A stretch of 64,000 nucleotides of DNA, from positions 620,001-684,000 of the forward strand of contig NZ_JACNMJ010000001.1 in NCBI RefSeq assembly GCF_014526325.1, in the 5' to 3' direction. The stretch is from Psychroserpens algicola. GTDB taxonomy: Bacteria; Bacteroidota; Bacteroidia; Flavobacteriales; Flavobacteriaceae. Positions 38,264 through 42,583 of this stretch are shown piece by piece; the first letter of the stretch is position 1, and every line of letters starts with the position of its first letter. The notes beneath the pieces are model-generated. The model ran no database searches, was not told where the DNA came from, and saw only the letters and a program-made list of their open reading frames with translations. A program made the translations under genes and the position numbers.

Positions 38264-38596
38264 TTATTTACTTAACATCAACAATTCGTTGCAGATGATT
38301 TCAGTTGTATAGCGTTTTACACCATCTTTATCTTCCCATGAACGGTTGGTTAATTTACCTTCAACAGCAATTTCTTTGCCTTTTGTAACATAATCTTCAA
38401 CCACTTTTACAAGTCCGCCACGAACGACAATATTATGCCAATGTGCGCGCTCTACCTTGTTTCCTTCTTTGTCTTTGTAGCTGTCATCTGTAGCTAAAGA
38501 GAATTTAGCCATTTTGTTTCCGTCTTCGAAGTTGATAATTTCTGGATCTTGTCCTAATCTTCCAATCAACTGTACTTTGTTTCTAAGTGCATTCAT
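38264..38596 (-). CDS. ssb: Single-stranded DNA-binding protein, short form
   Basis: 110 residues from the ATG at 38596; the track of open frame to 38629 would add an unlikely leader. The OB-fold core is clear: NKVQLIGRLGQDPE, MAKFSLATDDSY and WHNIVVRGGLV. It lacks the Gly/Pro-rich linker and acidic tail (DDIPF) by which SSB recruits partners, ending instead NELLMLSK. Short tail-less SSBs are common as second copies in flavobacteria. It binds ssDNA during replication, repair or transformation. The IS1595-type element at 38725 lies 128 bp upstream. Confidence 0.92.
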   Translation of the reverse strand: MNALRNKVQLIGRLGQDPEIINFEDGNKMAKFSLATDDSYKDKEGNKVERAHWHNIVVRGGLVKVVEDYVTKGKEIAVEGKLTNRSWEDKDGVKRYTTEIICNELLMLSK

Positions 38597-38716: not shown

Positions 38717-38724
38717 TATTTAAA
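38717..38724. repeat. Left 8-bp target-site duplication
   Basis: TATTTAAA directly before the left end of the element; an identical copy follows the right end at 42461-42468. 8-bp duplications are typical of the IS1595 family. Confidence 0.9.
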
Positions 38725-38749
38725 GGGAACTATATACAACAATACACTA
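38725..38749 (+). repeat. Left terminal inverted repeat of the IS1595-type element
   Basis: 25 bp beginning GGGAACTATATACAAC and ending TACACTA. It pairs with 42436-42460 with three mismatches (positions 9, 17 and 18). Confidence 0.9.
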
Positions 38750-38753
38750 AAAA

Positions 38754-38924
38754 ATGAAAAAAACAAACACAGATTACGTAATTGAGGAACTTAAGAGAAT
38801 AACATTTCCATTACCTAGAAAACGAATGACATCGTCTCAGTTAAAAGAAATTGAGAATCAAATTGAAGAAATAGAGGAATCTATATTAGTTTTTAAAGAA
38901 CATATGAAACGTTTTAAAACTTAA
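38754..38924 (+). CDS. Cargo gene: 56-residue coiled-coil peptide
   Basis: ATG at 38754, just inside the left terminal repeat; TAA at 38922-38924. The chain is charged and helical: a basic stretch (FPLPRKRMTSSQ) and then a heptad-like LKEIENQIEEIEESILVFKE. No domain is recognised. The first base of its stop overlaps the stop of the convergent 67-residue gene. The role in the element is unknown; a short coiled coil could be a DNA-binding or transposase-partner peptide. Confidence 0.6.
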   Translation: MKKTNTDYVIEELKRITFPLPRKRMTSSQLKEIENQIEEIEESILVFKEHMKRFKT

Positions 38925-39124
38925 TCCCATTCAACAGTTAACTCATCATAACCTAAAGTGTCGGGGGTTACTTTTAATGTGATTAAATTTTCGTGGTGCA
39001 TTATTTTTAGAATTACATAAACTTCATTACCATGTTTTAAATAATCACCCTTTCTAGGTACTGATTGAAGATTAAGTACTGCAATTTCATTACCATTTGA
39101 TTGATTTACTATTCTGAATTTCAT
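38921..39124 (-). CDS. Cargo gene: 67-residue SH3-like hypothetical protein
   Basis: 67 residues. The beta-rich sequence (FRIVNQSNGNEIAVLNL, RKGDYLKHGNEVYVILKIM, LITLKVTP) with alternating hydrophobics suggests a small SH3-like barrel. No catalytic residues are evident. The stop codons of this gene and the convergent 56-codon gene overlap in the palindrome TTAA. Not recognised. Confidence 0.6.
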   Translation of the reverse strand: MKFRIVNQSNGNEIAVLNLQSVPRKGDYLKHGNEVYVILKIMHHENLITLKVTPDTLGYDELTVEWD

Positions 39125-39238
39125 TTGGTTGGTTTTTAAAAGTTAAACATCTAATATACAATAAAATGAAAAATATATTTAACAACAATACACCAAGAGG
39201 TGCGAAAAAAATTAGGCTATGAGTGATAAACTAATTTT

Positions 39239-39760
39239 TCAATTATTTGACATGATTTGTTTTATAATAAACTCATATATAAGTATTAGACCTAATATTA
39301 TTCCTATTATCCAACTTAATTTCTCAATCCAAGAATTTTTACTAGCGGTATTCTCGGTCTTGTGGACTATATTTTGTTTTATTGGTTTATTAAATTCTAT
39401 TTTTCGTGATGACTGAGCAATACTACCTATGGTAGAATTTGAAAAATCATTGTTAGTAACATTTGCTAACGGCTTGGTTGGTTTGGAGTAATCACGACCT
39501 TTGTCAGTTAGGTATATTTTATTTGAGCCTTGAAATTCAGCGTAATTATTTAAAACTAAGTGTTTTCTAATATCAAAACTTAATTCTTGATATTGTTTTA
39601 TTTCTAAATCTGACAATTCAAGTTCTTTTGCTAAAGAGTAGACATTAAATTTATCATATCTAGGCGCTCTTGTAAGAGTTAAATCTATGAAATCTTGTAA
39701 CGCCTTATCTTTACCTTGTGGGTATTCAACTGGAAGACCGAAGTTATTTGCTTTAGCCAT
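39239..39760 (-). CDS. Cargo gene: winged-helix-like protein with a C-terminal membrane anchor
   Basis: 173 residues. The N-terminal ~100 residues are helical, with a short beta wing near GSNKIYLTDKGRDYSKP, like a winged-helix domain. A low-complexity Asn/Ser linker follows, and then a single transmembrane segment (WIIGIILGLILIYEFII, about 152-168) near the C-terminus. This could be a membrane-tethered regulator or sensor. The gene is divergent from the transposase across the palindromic control region at 39823-39868. Not recognised by name. Confidence 0.65.
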   Translation of the reverse strand: MAKANNFGLPVEYPQGKDKALQDFIDLTLTRAPRYDKFNVYSLAKELELSDLEIKQYQELSFDIRKHLVLNNYAEFQGSNKIYLTDKGRDYSKPTKPLANVTNNDFSNSTIGSIAQSSRKIEFNKPIKQNIVHKTENTASKNSWIEKLSWIIGIILGLILIYEFIIKQIMSNN

Positions 39761-39822
39761 AAGTTTATATATTGGTTTAGTTCACTAATCTACAAATAAT
39801 TAAAACACAATTATTAGAATTA

Positions 39823-39868
39823 AATTACACTAAATATTTGTTTTAGTGTAATTAACTTCTTATATTTG
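39823..39868 (+). promoter_or_regulatory. Transposase promoter embedded in a 12-bp perfect inverted repeat
   Basis: The inverted repeat AATTACACTAAA (39823-39834) and its complement (39842-39853) has a 7-base spacer containing a -33 TTTG (39837-39840). Twenty bp on is a perfect -7 box TATATTTG (39861-39868), 21 bp before the transposase ATG at 39890. The arms contain TACACTA, the inner end of both terminal repeats, so the transposase may bind here and repress its own promoter. Confidence 0.75.
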
Positions 39869-39889
39869 ATATATCAAAAACCAACAGCC

Positions 39890-40819
39890 ATGTTTAACAA
39901 AGAAGTAAAATCAATCCTAGACTTAATACAAGCATTTCCAAATGAACAAGCTTGCATCGAACACTTAGAGGTTTTACGTTGGAGTAATGGCGTTGTGAGT
40001 CCTTTTGAGCCTACTTCTAAAGTATATAACTGCAAAGGAAACCGTTATAAGTGCAAAGAGTCTGGTAAGTACTTTAATGTAAAGACTGACACTATATTTG
40101 ATAATACAAAAATGCCATTACAAAAATGGTTTATTGCTATATGGTTGGTTACTTCACACAAAAAAGGTATTTCATCTTTACAATTAGGTCGTGATTTAGG
40201 CATAACTCAAAAAAGCGCTTGGTTCATGTTACAGCGTATTAGAAACTGTTTTGGACTTAATGATGATAATCAAGATAAACTACAAGGTGAAGTTGAAATA
40301 GACGAAACTTACGTAGGTGGTAAAGCGGGAAACAGAAGCGCAAAAATAAGAGCGGACAAATCAGAAGCTACAAAAGAACACTATAAAAAGTCAACTGTAT
40401 TAGGTATGGTTGAGCGTGGTGGTGATGTTAGAGCAATGCATGTACAAAATGCTACTGAAATATCGTTGTTACCTCCTATCGTTAATAATATCGCTTTTAA
40501 TAGTTCTATTTACACAGACGAGTTAACGTCTTACAATAAGTTAGAGCGTGTTTACGACCACCAAACAGTAAAACATGGACGTGGTGAGTATGTAAGAGGT
40601 CGTGTATCTACAAACTCAATAGAGAGTTTTTGGGCGTTGTTAAAGCGTGGTATTTACGGAATATATCACTTCACGTCTAAAAAGCACTTACAGTTATACG
40701 TTGACGAGTTTGTATTTAGATATAACACTCGTAAAAACACTACTGAAAGTGAAAGATTTAATTTACTTTTGAGTAATATTGAGAATAGAATTACTTATAA
40801 AGACTTAATTAATGGCTAA
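39890..40819 (+). CDS. IS1595-family (ISXO2-like) transposase
   Basis: 309 residues from the ATG at 39890. An in-frame TTG at 39866 lies inside the -7 box and is rejected. A helical N-terminal domain with a zinc-ribbon-like region (about 25-60; YNCKGNRYKCKES) precedes the DDE core: Asp138 in EIDETYVGG, Asp210 in IYTDELTSY and the N242-E245 third site in TNSIESFWALLKRG, with Lys after it. It cuts and joins the element's ends. Overlaps the next gene by 8 bp. Confidence 0.95.
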   Translation: MFNKEVKSILDLIQAFPNEQACIEHLEVLRWSNGVVSPFEPTSKVYNCKGNRYKCKESGKYFNVKTDTIFDNTKMPLQKWFIAIWLVTSHKKGISSLQLGRDLGITQKSAWFMLQRIRNCFGLNDDNQDKLQGEVEIDETYVGGKAGNRSAKIRADKSEATKEHYKKSTVLGMVERGGDVRAMHVQNATEISLLPPIVNNIAFNSSIYTDELTSYNKLERVYDHQTVKHGRGEYVRGRVSTNSIESFWALLKRGIYGIYHFTSKKHLQLYVDEFVFRYNTRKNTTESERFNLLLSNIENRITYKDLING

Positions 40820-41045
40820 TATTAAGAAAATACGAATAGATGACGAGTGGTATTGCTCAATTAATGATGTTTTAAAGCTAATGAAAGACACTAACGATAT
40901 AGACGATTCAATAAGAGAACTTAAAAAGCTAAATACTATTGTAGTTAAAGCTAGAGGTTCTAAAAAAGAAGATGAACCAGAGTTATCAGATTTTAATAAA
41001 AAGCTAAAAAAAGGGCTGGATTGGAATCCTAAGAAAGAGGGTTAG
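40812..41045 (+). CDS. Cargo gene: truncated BRO-N-like protein
   Basis: 77 residues. IRIDDEWYCSINDVLKLMKD resembles the start of the BRO-N domain seen in phage antirepressors and DinD/RhuM-like proteins (consensus-like EWYxSVxDVxxxL). The C-terminal half of a BRO domain is absent, the chain ending in a basic KKLKKGLDWNPKKEG tail. Its first 8 bp overlap the transposase, implying coupled expression. Its role is unknown; a DNA-binding helper is possible. Confidence 0.65.
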   Translation: MANIKKIRIDDEWYCSINDVLKLMKDTNDIDDSIRELKKLNTIVVKARGSKKEDEPELSDFNKKLKKGLDWNPKKEG

Positions 41046-41046
41046 A

Positions 41047-41598
41047 CTAAAATTGAATATTTAATAAATCTGGATAAGTAGAACAAACCATGCTTTTTAT
41101 TGATTTCTCTAATTTTTTTAAATCGCTATTATTTCTATTTATTAGTACATAAGAACTTGCATTTGGATATGATTTATGCATAAATGTTTTATCACCTATT
41201 AATTGCGGTATATGATAAGTATATAATCTAAACCTTTGGTTTTTCTTATAACCCTCTACTTTTTCTGATTCAACATCAATTGTCCTAGCTCCAATAAATC
41301 CAAAAGACGCATTAGGATGCTTTATTAAAAGTTCTGGTATCGCTTTTGCACAGGTAATCAATATATTGGCTACGTCACCACGATTGACGACTATTGAATA
41401 TTTTCTAGGACTTGCTTTATGTATTTTTGCGTAGAACTTAACAGCAATAAAATCATATGCATGTAAATCACAATATATTATATAATGTAATTTTGTTACG
41501 GATGAAAAAAATTTGTAAACGTATCTATATTCGTGAGCAGAACACTTTGGGTGAGTTTGAATAAATCTTATATTATACCCTTTGTGTGTTAATTGCAT
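41047..41598 (-). CDS. Cargo gene: 183-residue hypothetical protein
   Basis: 183 residues. Mixed alpha/beta with conserved-looking segments YDFIAVKFYAKIHKASPRKY, ELLIKHPNASFGFIGARTID and NASSYVLINRNNSDLKKLEK. It faintly recalls N-acetyltransferase or short unknown proteins found in Bacteroidetes mobile regions, but I cannot assign a family. The start at 41598 abuts the next gene upstream (41599). No signal peptide or membrane segment. It ends 1 bp before the stop of the BRO-N-like gene. Confidence 0.7.
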   Translation of the reverse strand: MQLTHKGYNIRFIQTHPKCSAHEYRYVYKFFSSVTKLHYIIYCDLHAYDFIAVKFYAKIHKASPRKYSIVVNRGDVANILITCAKAIPELLIKHPNASFGFIGARTIDVESEKVEGYKKNQRFRLYTYHIPQLIGDKTFMHKSYPNASSYVLINRNNSDLKKLEKSIKSMVCSTYPDLLNIQF

Positions 41599-41796
41599 TT
41601 AAGGCACTAGCATAGGTCGTACAGCCCCATTAAGTCTAACAACTTTTCCATTAGTCAAGACTTGTCTTAACTCAACAGCCTCCACATCTTCTAAAGATAC
41701 CCAACCTAGACGGTCTCCTTTAGTTTTTAAGGATTTTTTATAAGTAACTTTATTAGAGTGTACATGCTTTTTTATATGTCTCTTAACTGTTCCCAT
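41599..41796 (-). CDS. Cargo gene: small basic protein
   Basis: 65 residues from the ATG at 41796 (MGTVKRHIKKHVHS); an upstream ATG at 41841 would add 15 residues. The N-terminal third is His/Lys/Arg-rich, and a beta-like WVSLEDVEAVELRQVLTNG follows. A possible nucleic-acid-binding peptide. It abuts the 183-residue gene with no gap, so the two are probably co-translated. Not recognised. Confidence 0.6.
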   Translation of the reverse strand: MGTVKRHIKKHVHSNKVTYKKSLKTKGDRLGWVSLEDVEAVELRQVLTNGKVVRLNGAVRPMLVP

Positions 41797-42092
41797 TGGT
41801 TTATGATGTATACTATTATATATTATAACACTATTAATCAATACAATATTACAATATGTATGCCATATTTTGTATGTTACAACACAACTAAATATCTATC
41901 GTGTGTGTGTCTTACTATAGACAAAAACTATAGCTAGTCTAGACTAAAAAAGCTATAACCATAGATTTTATCTATACTTATAAGACGTAATTTACTTATA
42001 TAAGTTACACTTTAACTATCAGATTTACAAAGACTTTAACACTTAATTTTGTATATTTCATACCTTAGTTATACTTAAATACATTGTAAATA
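41797..42092. other. Non-coding control region inside the element
   Basis: AT-rich. Holds a GT repeat (41901-41910), two CTATAG hexamers and a perfect 12-bp palindrome TAGTCTAGACTA at 41935-41946. No ORF with a clear start was seen. Confidence 0.45.
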
Positions 42093-42230
42093 ATGAGTAA
42101 ACAAAAGGCAGTTGAAGTACTAGAAATGATTTATAAGCACTCAAAAGAGGGCAAAGACGTTCGTTACGTAGATAATCTTGATGTTAAAGGGTTTGTTGTA
42201 GAATTATTTAGTAAATTTGATATTAGATAG
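42093..42230 (+). CDS. Cargo gene: 45-residue helical peptide
   Basis: ATG at 42093, TAG at 42228. Sequence MSKQKAVEVLEMIYKHSKEG followed by DVRYVDNLDVKGFVVELFSK. Amphipathic and possibly a small helix-turn-helix or toxin/antitoxin-type peptide, but no family is recognised. It is the last ORF before the right end of the element. Confidence 0.55.
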   Translation: MSKQKAVEVLEMIYKHSKEGKDVRYVDNLDVKGFVVELFSKFDIR

Positions 42231-42435
42231 CAATTCGTTTTCGGACGTGTTTCTGGGTGGTCTGTTTGGAATCAATAACAGAGTATAGAATAGTTGCTGT
42301 TAGTTCTTTTCATAAAAAGGTTTGTTTCGACGTTAAACGTCTCGCAAGATGCATATAGATAACTAGTAAGTCTATGGAACAAATTCTTTAATAGATAATA
42401 CCCTAATTCTTGTTGGGTTTGTCAATAGTGAATTC
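42231..42435. other. Right-end non-coding part of the element
   Basis: No ORF was seen. It contains a near-perfect palindrome GACGTT-A-AACGTC at 42329-42341 and then the right terminal repeat from 42436. Confidence 0.45.
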
Positions 42436-42460
42436 TAGTGTAAAGTTGTATGTAGTTCCC
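42436..42460 (-). repeat. Right terminal inverted repeat of the IS1595-type element
   Basis: 25 bp that on the minus strand begins GGGAACTACATACAAC and ends TACACTA; 22 of 25 positions match the left repeat. Confidence 0.9.
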
Positions 42461-42468
42461 TATTTAAA
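42461..42468. repeat. Right 8-bp target-site duplication
   Basis: TATTTAAA, identical to 38717-38724. Confidence 0.9.
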
Positions 42469-42470
42469 AT

Positions 42471-42500
42471 CGTTTGTAAACGTTTGTAGTCGTTTGTAAA
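42471..42500. repeat. Three tandem decamers next to the insertion site
   Basis: CGTTTGTAAA, CGTTTGTAGT and CGTTTGTAAA in perfect 10-bp register, directly after the target duplication and upstream of the lipoprotein gene at 42584. A 10-bp period puts the repeats on one face of the helix, as for regulator sites. Confidence 0.6.
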
Positions 42501-42583
42501 TGTTTTAAAATATTGATATATAGGCATCTATATATATTTTAACTCTTGATTCAAATAAATAACTTATCTTTAAATAAAAAACA

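Follow-up and report, generated by a model that had tools for sequence, protein, structure and literature searches.

A passenger-carrying IS1595-family transposon beside ssb in Psychroserpens algicola, from a lineage that appears site-specific and encodes a tagged partner protein

The DNA analysed was a 64,000-nt stretch of the Psychroserpens algicola genome (GCF_014526325.1, contig NZ_JACNMJ010000001.1, positions 620,001-684,000), hereafter the window, to which all coordinates refer. An intact 3,736-bp IS1595-family element with real ends and passenger genes lies at 38725-42460, in agreement with a preliminary description of this DNA that had called a complete element. The terminal inverted repeats that it had reported, at 38725-38749 (plus strand) and 42436-42460 (minus strand), are identical at 22 of 25 positions; at up to three mismatches there was no third match in the window and none in 100 shuffles. 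The 8-bp target duplication was likewise confirmed, TATTTAAA being present exactly at 38717-38724 and 42461-42468, and congeners carry a single copy. When inverted repeats accompanied by an 8-bp duplication were searched for without bias, exactly these ends ranked first, with TATTTAAA on each side; the element therefore has both the terminal repeats and the duplication of its family. At 3,736 bp, with a partner gene and cargo, it is not a single-gene IS of about 1 kb, but this does not exclude membership, since the IS1595 family also includes passenger-carrying transporter IS (tIS) such as ISNha5, according to a section of PMC11891212. The 64 elements delimited in this analysis ranged from 2.0 to 5.8 kb, and 3.7 kb is a normal length for its branch. 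The possibility that the right end (42231-42430) encodes a non-coding RNA was rejected, the region giving one chance-level Rfam match and folding z-scores of -0.62 and +0.34.

A search of the host genome found one copy of the transposase only, and a search of 22 congeners for the element gave short partial matches only. At all 21 congener loci fetched, both flanks were contiguous and one copy of the 8-bp target was present, as expected of empty sites; the junction was aligned over at least 20 nt on each side at 19 loci and extended 18 and 17 nt past the junction at the other two (L240 and L241). The 22nd congener (G022), which gave weak matches only, is omitted from this set. Recent movement is compatible with the intact ends and the empty sites.

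The transposase gene (39890-40819, plus strand) encodes a 309-aa protein that is intact, as had been claimed, and that matched Pfam DDE_Tnp_IS1595 (4e-42, 144.3 bits; cut-off 27) and the NCBIfam IS1595 family transposase (2.5e-59, 200.7 bits; cut-off 75). Its predicted fold is of the DDE type. Residues D138, D210, E245 and K252, which by family we take to be the catalytic D, D and E and the following K, were invariant across 46 aligned rows; an alignment that mixed tail fragments with whole transposases was discarded because the fragments were misplaced. The match to Zn_ribbon_IS1595 was weak (E 0.0014, 19 bits, below the cut-off of 25.4); an N-terminal zinc-ribbon domain is ascribed to the family in a passage of PMC8101967.

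Seven further ORFs are present, as the preliminary description had stated in counting seven cargo genes, but the one at 40812-41045 encodes a transposase-coupled partner and is not free cargo. No function was assigned to three ORFs at the left: one of 56 aa (38754-38924, plus strand), one of 67 aa (38921-39124, minus strand) and one of 173 aa (39239-39760, minus strand). The first two have relatives in L015, an ssb-inserted element (50% over 44 aa, E 4e-8, and, weakly, 28% over 46 aa, E 6e-4, respectively), and the third gave a weak PHROG match (0.0028) and nothing in Pfam, NCBIfam or PADLOC. An 80-aa ORF (41599-41841, minus strand, TTG start as listed) and a 183-aa ORF (41047-41598, minus strand) are the first and second genes of a coupled pair, which was found again in L004/G041, in G072 and, weakly, in G601. 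Two small coupled genes conserved together are what is looked for in toxin-antitoxin systems, and the pair may be called toxin-antitoxin-like. The 183-aa protein had weak similarity to DUF6934 (0.005, below the cut-off), a predicted model with a pLDDT of 50 (from a four-row alignment) and no relatives found in viral contigs. The 45-aa ORF at 42093-42230 (plus strand), taken from the ORF list, is a doubtful gene, with no relatives at E 0.01 in the fetched loci.

The partner, gene B (40812-41045, plus strand, 77 aa), shares its first 8 nt with the end of the transposase gene, and its relatives are the Bro-N-type partner of L019 and a sequence in L011. It terminates in a tag, LSDFNxKLKKGLxYNPK (LSDFNKKLKKGLDWNPKKEG, 40983-41042, plus strand), identified by motif and profile comparison. 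Relatives bear this tag on P63C, RhuM, KilA-N and Bro-N proteins, phage-type proteins that form the N-terminal parts of many partners, and the window partner appears to be reduced to a short Bro-N-like piece and the tag. RhuM and KilA-N partner copies matched the PADLOC candidate families PDC-S05 and PDC-S22; in contrast to partner RhuM, RhuM genes found at other places in genomes of the family had no tag match. Such a tagged partner is often the product of the gene that runs across the transposase stop: the motif, whose expression and classes were composed after the sequences had been seen, was found in 78 of 111 position-defined ORFs versus 55 of 4807 controls. A phage microprotein class was less exclusive, 53 of 80 adjoining a transposase. 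In 149 genomes the tag profile matched eight places at E≤2.2e-8, each with an IS1595 transposase no more than 2 kb away, and the next-best match had an E of 0.014; as several of the matched genomes look conspecific with the loci from which the profile was built, this test measures specificity more than reach. On the transposase tree the tag class changed three times and the attached domain 24 times over the same rows, a comparison suggesting that a transposase lineage keeps its tag but exchanges the domain attached to it. Within the tag, codons for the same residue differed in 2857 of 5689 pairs; the peptide is thus the conserved thing, and a role of the tag as a DNA signal was ruled out. Among 14 loci whose C-termini were examined, none showed a natural transposase-tag fusion.

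The reading of the locus as an IS plus cargo had omitted its site: this lineage has a specific target adjacent to ssb. The host ssb gene lies beside the target at 38264-38596 (minus strand, from a conserved ATG), and a conserved 31-bp repeat block lies upstream of it at 42470-42500 (minus strand); the block occurs once in the genome, allowing up to three mismatches. In the clade of the window transposase, 18 of 23 rows were at ssb, four members (L003, L009, L039 and L082) were elsewhere, and L012 was on a contig too short to be placed. The ssb label changed six times on the transposase tree, compared to 20.5 times when shuffled. The block score was bimodal over 68 delimited elements, 18 of which abutted the block, and in 16 of these 18 the gap from duplication to block was 13 or 14 bp. 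The duplicated letters varied among these 16 elements, one of which was reversed. Fixed distance from one landmark was therefore found for the lineage but not for the window copy, an exception that lies on the ssb side of the block, 1 bp away; L016, at 11 bp, is on the same side as the window copy. In a survey of the neighbours of 66 elements, ssb was the sole widely common one (15/66). Taken together, these sequence comparisons indicate a lineage of IS1595-family transposons that is apparently site-specific, inserting upstream of ssb beside the repeat block. Mimicry of the block by the terminal repeats found no clear support, since only the window right end, among eight repeats tested, fell below 0.05 (0.037). 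The variable domain was rejected as the chooser of the target because the elements at ssb include ones with KilA-N, RhuM, P63C, Bro-N and other partners, and no candidate targeting gene was recognised among the window ORFs in Pfam or NCBIfam.

A second IS1595 lineage, with a transposase 40-44% identical, occupies the same place. A pattern search of 397 genomes gave four matches, and none in the backwards control; the spacings were 21-22 nt, with 16-28 permitted, and two of the four were complete elements with exact duplications. No tag was found in four inspected elements of this lineage, and in other clades the tagged elements are located away from ssb; tag and targeting are therefore separable. 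The sequence GGCATCTATATATAT (42523-42537, plus strand) lies across the block from the window copy, at the canonical spacing, and is probably the leftover end of a second-lineage element.

We consider it probable that the window element is an IS1595-family transposon of the passenger-carrying (transporter) kind, from a site-specific lineage with a tagged, swappable partner. The transposase complex would be held at the ssb block, directly or through a block-bound host protein, and would join the element ends at a fixed distance from it. Through the tag, the co-translated partner would dock on the transposase; its variable domain (P63C, RhuM, KilA-N, Bro-N or others) may be a regulatory or host-benefit module that is carried along.

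There is a real, if less than even, chance that the element proteins do not read the block at all and that a host protein bound to it, for example an ssb regulator, recruits the transposase. The block is kept upstream of ssb in congeners that lack the element, it is used by two lineages as diverged as those described above, and it shows no clear match to the terminal repeats; against this, no candidate protein was found, and the site goes unused by the family's other clades within the same host family. Somewhat less likely is the view that gene B is a brake, in which the tag or microprotein would bind the transposase and reduce transposition so that copies remain few, with a secondary role for the attached domains. 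The single copy in the window genome, versus 19 matches in one genome and 13 in another for IS1595 transposases with no good tag match nearby, points this way, although the contrast is across lineages and not within one, as do the stop/start overlap and the occurrence of the motif alone in 37-52 aa ORFs of other lineages; against it, most delimited Bacteroidota elements retain a large domain on the tag. An ordinary IS that inserts loosely into AT-rich DNA, with a merely tolerant ssb region and seven unrelated passengers, would fit the many AT-rich duplications, the lack of a common neighbour for most other-clade elements and the passenger-carrying members already known (in part of PMC11891212), but is improbable and already disfavoured by the 13/14-bp spacing despite differing duplications, GCCCGGGC included, by the diverged lineage at the same place and by the tag evidence.

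Tn7 uses one conserved site by a housekeeping gene, and the sequence it recognises is separate from the duplicated letters. The lineage proposed here as site-specific resembles it in having a single housekeeping-gene site and a landmark apart from the duplicated letters, and differs in that there is a single 309-aa transposase, that Pfam revealed no Tn7-type targeting proteins among the window ORFs and that the orientation is not fixed. With IS1595 tIS such as ISNha5 it has in common a DDE_Tnp_IS1595 transposase, terminal repeats, an 8-bp duplication and passenger genes, but it occupies a single host locus at a fixed spacing, and its coupled ORF bears a swappable tag. The TnGBS/ISLre2/ISKra4 group likewise comprises DDE elements that insert at a fixed short distance, given as 15-17 bp in an excerpt of PMC3942029, from a region recognised upstream of genes; those elements belong to a Mutator-type superfamily with many sigma-A promoter targets, whereas here there is one ssb-upstream block. 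Searches of the open-licence literature found no paper describing the tag, and none describing IS1595 elements that target ssb.

More tentatively, and with less than even confidence, IS1595-type DDE transposons may have evolved Tn7-like single-site homing to the ssb block, where they would stack and assemble, via the tag, with a co-translated partner bearing swapped phage-type or defence-candidate domains; the ssb promoter region would then serve as a port at which small, exchangeable defence modules dock. Insertion by simple IS elements is usually regarded as loose. If the proposal is true, a lineage with a 309-aa DDE transposase would be a very small system for dissecting DDE target choice, and its fixed-distance landing at one unique landmark could provide a safe-site insertion tool. 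A swappable tag would be unusual, as a short peptide that labels a protein as transposon machinery, and it would allow partner genes with no assigned function to be spotted from sequence alone.

The preliminary description had proposed an IS1595-family element with exact ends and an intact transposase, and both features were confirmed. The element occupies positions 38725-42460 (3,736 bp), is flanked on both sides by the 8-bp duplication TATTTAAA and has terminal repeats that match at 22 of 25 positions; shuffled sequence gave zero matches. The 309-aa transposase was full-length and IS1595-typical in Pfam and NCBIfam searches, and residues D138, D210, E245 and K252 were invariant across 46 aligned transposase rows. 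Its structure was modelled with confidence (pLDDT 89), the top PDB matches of the predicted fold being Rous sarcoma virus integrase and Mos1 transposase. The element was present in a single copy in its own genome. The empty-site comparison suggested earlier revealed an uninterrupted site, with one 8-bp target, at all 21 loci fetched from the 22 congeners. The element is a passenger-carrying member of the IS1595 family.

Directly upstream of the transposase gene lies an inverted repeat (39808-39868; 27-nt arms, 85% identity, 7-nt loop), the arms of which contain TTACACTAAA...TTTAGTGTAA, a sequence resembling the inner portion of the terminal repeats; it is perhaps an operator. At 39182-39209, ACAACAATACAC represents a 79% internal copy of the inner terminal-repeat sequence.

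The cargo of the window copy gave nothing above the curated cut-offs of Pfam and NCBIfam and zero matches in PADLOC. Two of its ORFs (80 and 183 aa) have abutting stop and start codons (TAAATG), a layout that suggests a putative toxin-antitoxin pair. The pair was also found in a relative (L004/G041), where it lies in the adjoining stretch at the ssb site, and in genomes G072, where it was broken, and G601, where the small ORF matched weakly. At another relative locus (L073:2071-4060) a different IS1595 transposase was followed by a 60-aa ORF and then a distant 177-aa relative of the 183-aa ORF. A cargo scan of relatives, covering 76 of 105 ORFs, identified restriction-modification, SocA/Panacea, Fic, KAP, Schlafen, PemK and NYN families; because these families appear in the scanned cargo, the element group often has defence- or toxin-antitoxin-type genes.

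Relatives were collected by transposase scans of genomes (80 loci kept of 435) and of viral contigs (80 kept of 121); their hosts included Bacteroidota, Streptococcus, Gastranaerophilales and Methylocystis. An unbiased end search of 89 kept loci and the window, in which the final pair was picked by hand among the candidate pairs listed, delimited 64 elements, window included (2.0-5.8 kb, median 3.2 kb). Among viral-contig loci, a further 24 of 41 were delimited (1.5-2.7 kb).

Downstream of the transposase gene there was a partner ORF of variable size and domain content, the start codon of which mostly overlapped the transposase stop. An LSDFNxKLKKGLxYNPK-like C-terminal tag was detected in the partner ORF of 37 of the 64 elements by the first pattern and in seven more by a slightly looser one. 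Pfam identified P63C, RhuM, KilA-N and Bro-N domains in tagged partner ORFs; at three loci (L013, L023 and L039) the tag was on an unclassified protein adjoining an HTH/ImmA-IrrE ORF, which in L023 matched PADLOC PD-Lambda-2_B. Other lineages had a motif of the same spacing, [FL]-x3-[LA]-x3-[LFA]-x-[YFVT]-x-P, located close to the N-terminus, as the sole feature of a 37-52 aa ORF, or before P63C, RhuM or a C5 methylase; in L095:5906-7180 a single ORF comprised the motif and then a C5 cytosine methylase. Partner ORFs were also defined by position only, using 153 of 160 loci (seven partial matches were left out), with the loss of seven short or broken transposases and 35 without an overlapping ORF. 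The relaxed motif, which was composed after the sequences had been inspected, was near a terminus in 78 of the resultant 111 ORFs (1.25 expected by length) and in 55 of 4807 control ORFs.

A 35-row tag profile matched eight places in seven of 149 family genomes (E≤2.2e-8), and each place had a DDE_Tnp_IS1595 match no more than 2 kb away; 27 of these 149 genomes contained such transposase matches. The tag hit ranking after these eight had an E value of 0.014. Upstream of ssb, the sequences of G041, G111 and G141 were identical to those of L004, L019 and L023, respectively. Since some hit genomes appear to be conspecific with loci in the profile, this test shows specificity, not reach. Among 296 genomes drawn, the sole match (E≤1e-6) was the own genome. 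RhuM (35 matches in 29 of the 149 genomes) coincided with tag hits only in G041 and G109; P63C was found in two of the 149, namely G106, with the tag, and G122, 1.4 kb from a transposase and with no tag hit. On a tree of 121 transposases, using the same rows, fused-domain labels (from Pfam, BLAST clustering and inspection by eye) required 24 changes versus three for regex-defined motif classes. Tag codons differed in 2857 of 5689 same-residue pairs. These results provide good support for the conclusion that in Bacteroidota the tag belongs with the transposase, on which it presumably docks. The association was less exclusive in viral contigs: of 80 relatives kept from 97 in the viral microprotein scan, 53 directly followed a transposase, 24 did not and three had too little flank, with transposase sequence elsewhere in the 1.5-kb flanks of 10 of the 24. 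Genomes with tag hits had one or two IS1595 transposase matches each, compared to 19 in G093 and 13 in G146, neither of which had a good tag hit.

The sole widely shared neighbour was ssb, which adjoined 15 of 66 delimited elements, always with the element upstream of the gene. The interval contained the repeat block TTTACAAACGACTACAAACATTTACAAACGA (42470-42500 in the window), which occurred once in the own genome (up to 3 mismatches) and was strongly conserved across the genus, including element-free congeners (L226-L246). Of the 31 letters of the block, 22-31 were matched in 18 of the 68 delimited elements and no more than 19 in the other 50, and the duplication was 13 or 14 bp from the block in 16 of the 18. 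Four of the 18 were picked by site (L247 and L248 for nearness to ssb, L253 and L254 from a pattern search); among the 14 picked without regard to site, 12 had this spacing (L025 and L028 have a common duplication and may represent one event). L011 was in the opposite orientation to the others. These sequence comparisons strongly support site-specific placement of the lineage. In L002, L004 and L005 further IS1595-type ends directly adjoin the element, an apparent tandem stacking at the ssb site. Promoter-directed insertion by the TnGBS/ISLre2 group, as described in PMC3942029, was the closest printed analogue seen for this site geometry.

A second IS1595 lineage inserts at the same site. A search of 397 genomes for an end plus the block, with 16-28 nt permitted between them, gave four matches and none in the backwards control. 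All four were spaced 21-22 nt (8 + 13 or 14); two were complete elements with exact duplications, one was on too short a contig and one was the window. Four second-lineage transposases had 40-44% identity to that of the window. Ends of the second-lineage type were at this 21-22 nt spacing in three of 21 congeners (G008, G013 and G019), with the transposase not found in G019. The second-lineage elements L247, L253 and L254 have in common a small set of accessory ORFs, comprising one of 68 aa that runs divergently to the transposase gene and, in some, ORFs of 73-115 and 170-174 aa; the tag was not seen in these three elements.

The window copy is an exception to the canonical placement, being 1 bp from the block on the side facing ssb; L016 likewise lies on that side, 11 bp away. 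Across the block from the window copy, at the canonical spacing, is a second-lineage-type end, GGCATCTATATATAT (42523-42537). Since no second opposite-strand end to pair with it was among the matches listed, this end is probably a leftover. The likely ssb promoter, judged by comparing the sequence with the promoter consensus, lies between the block and ssb. Canonical insertions keep the block and this likely promoter together; the window copy separates them.
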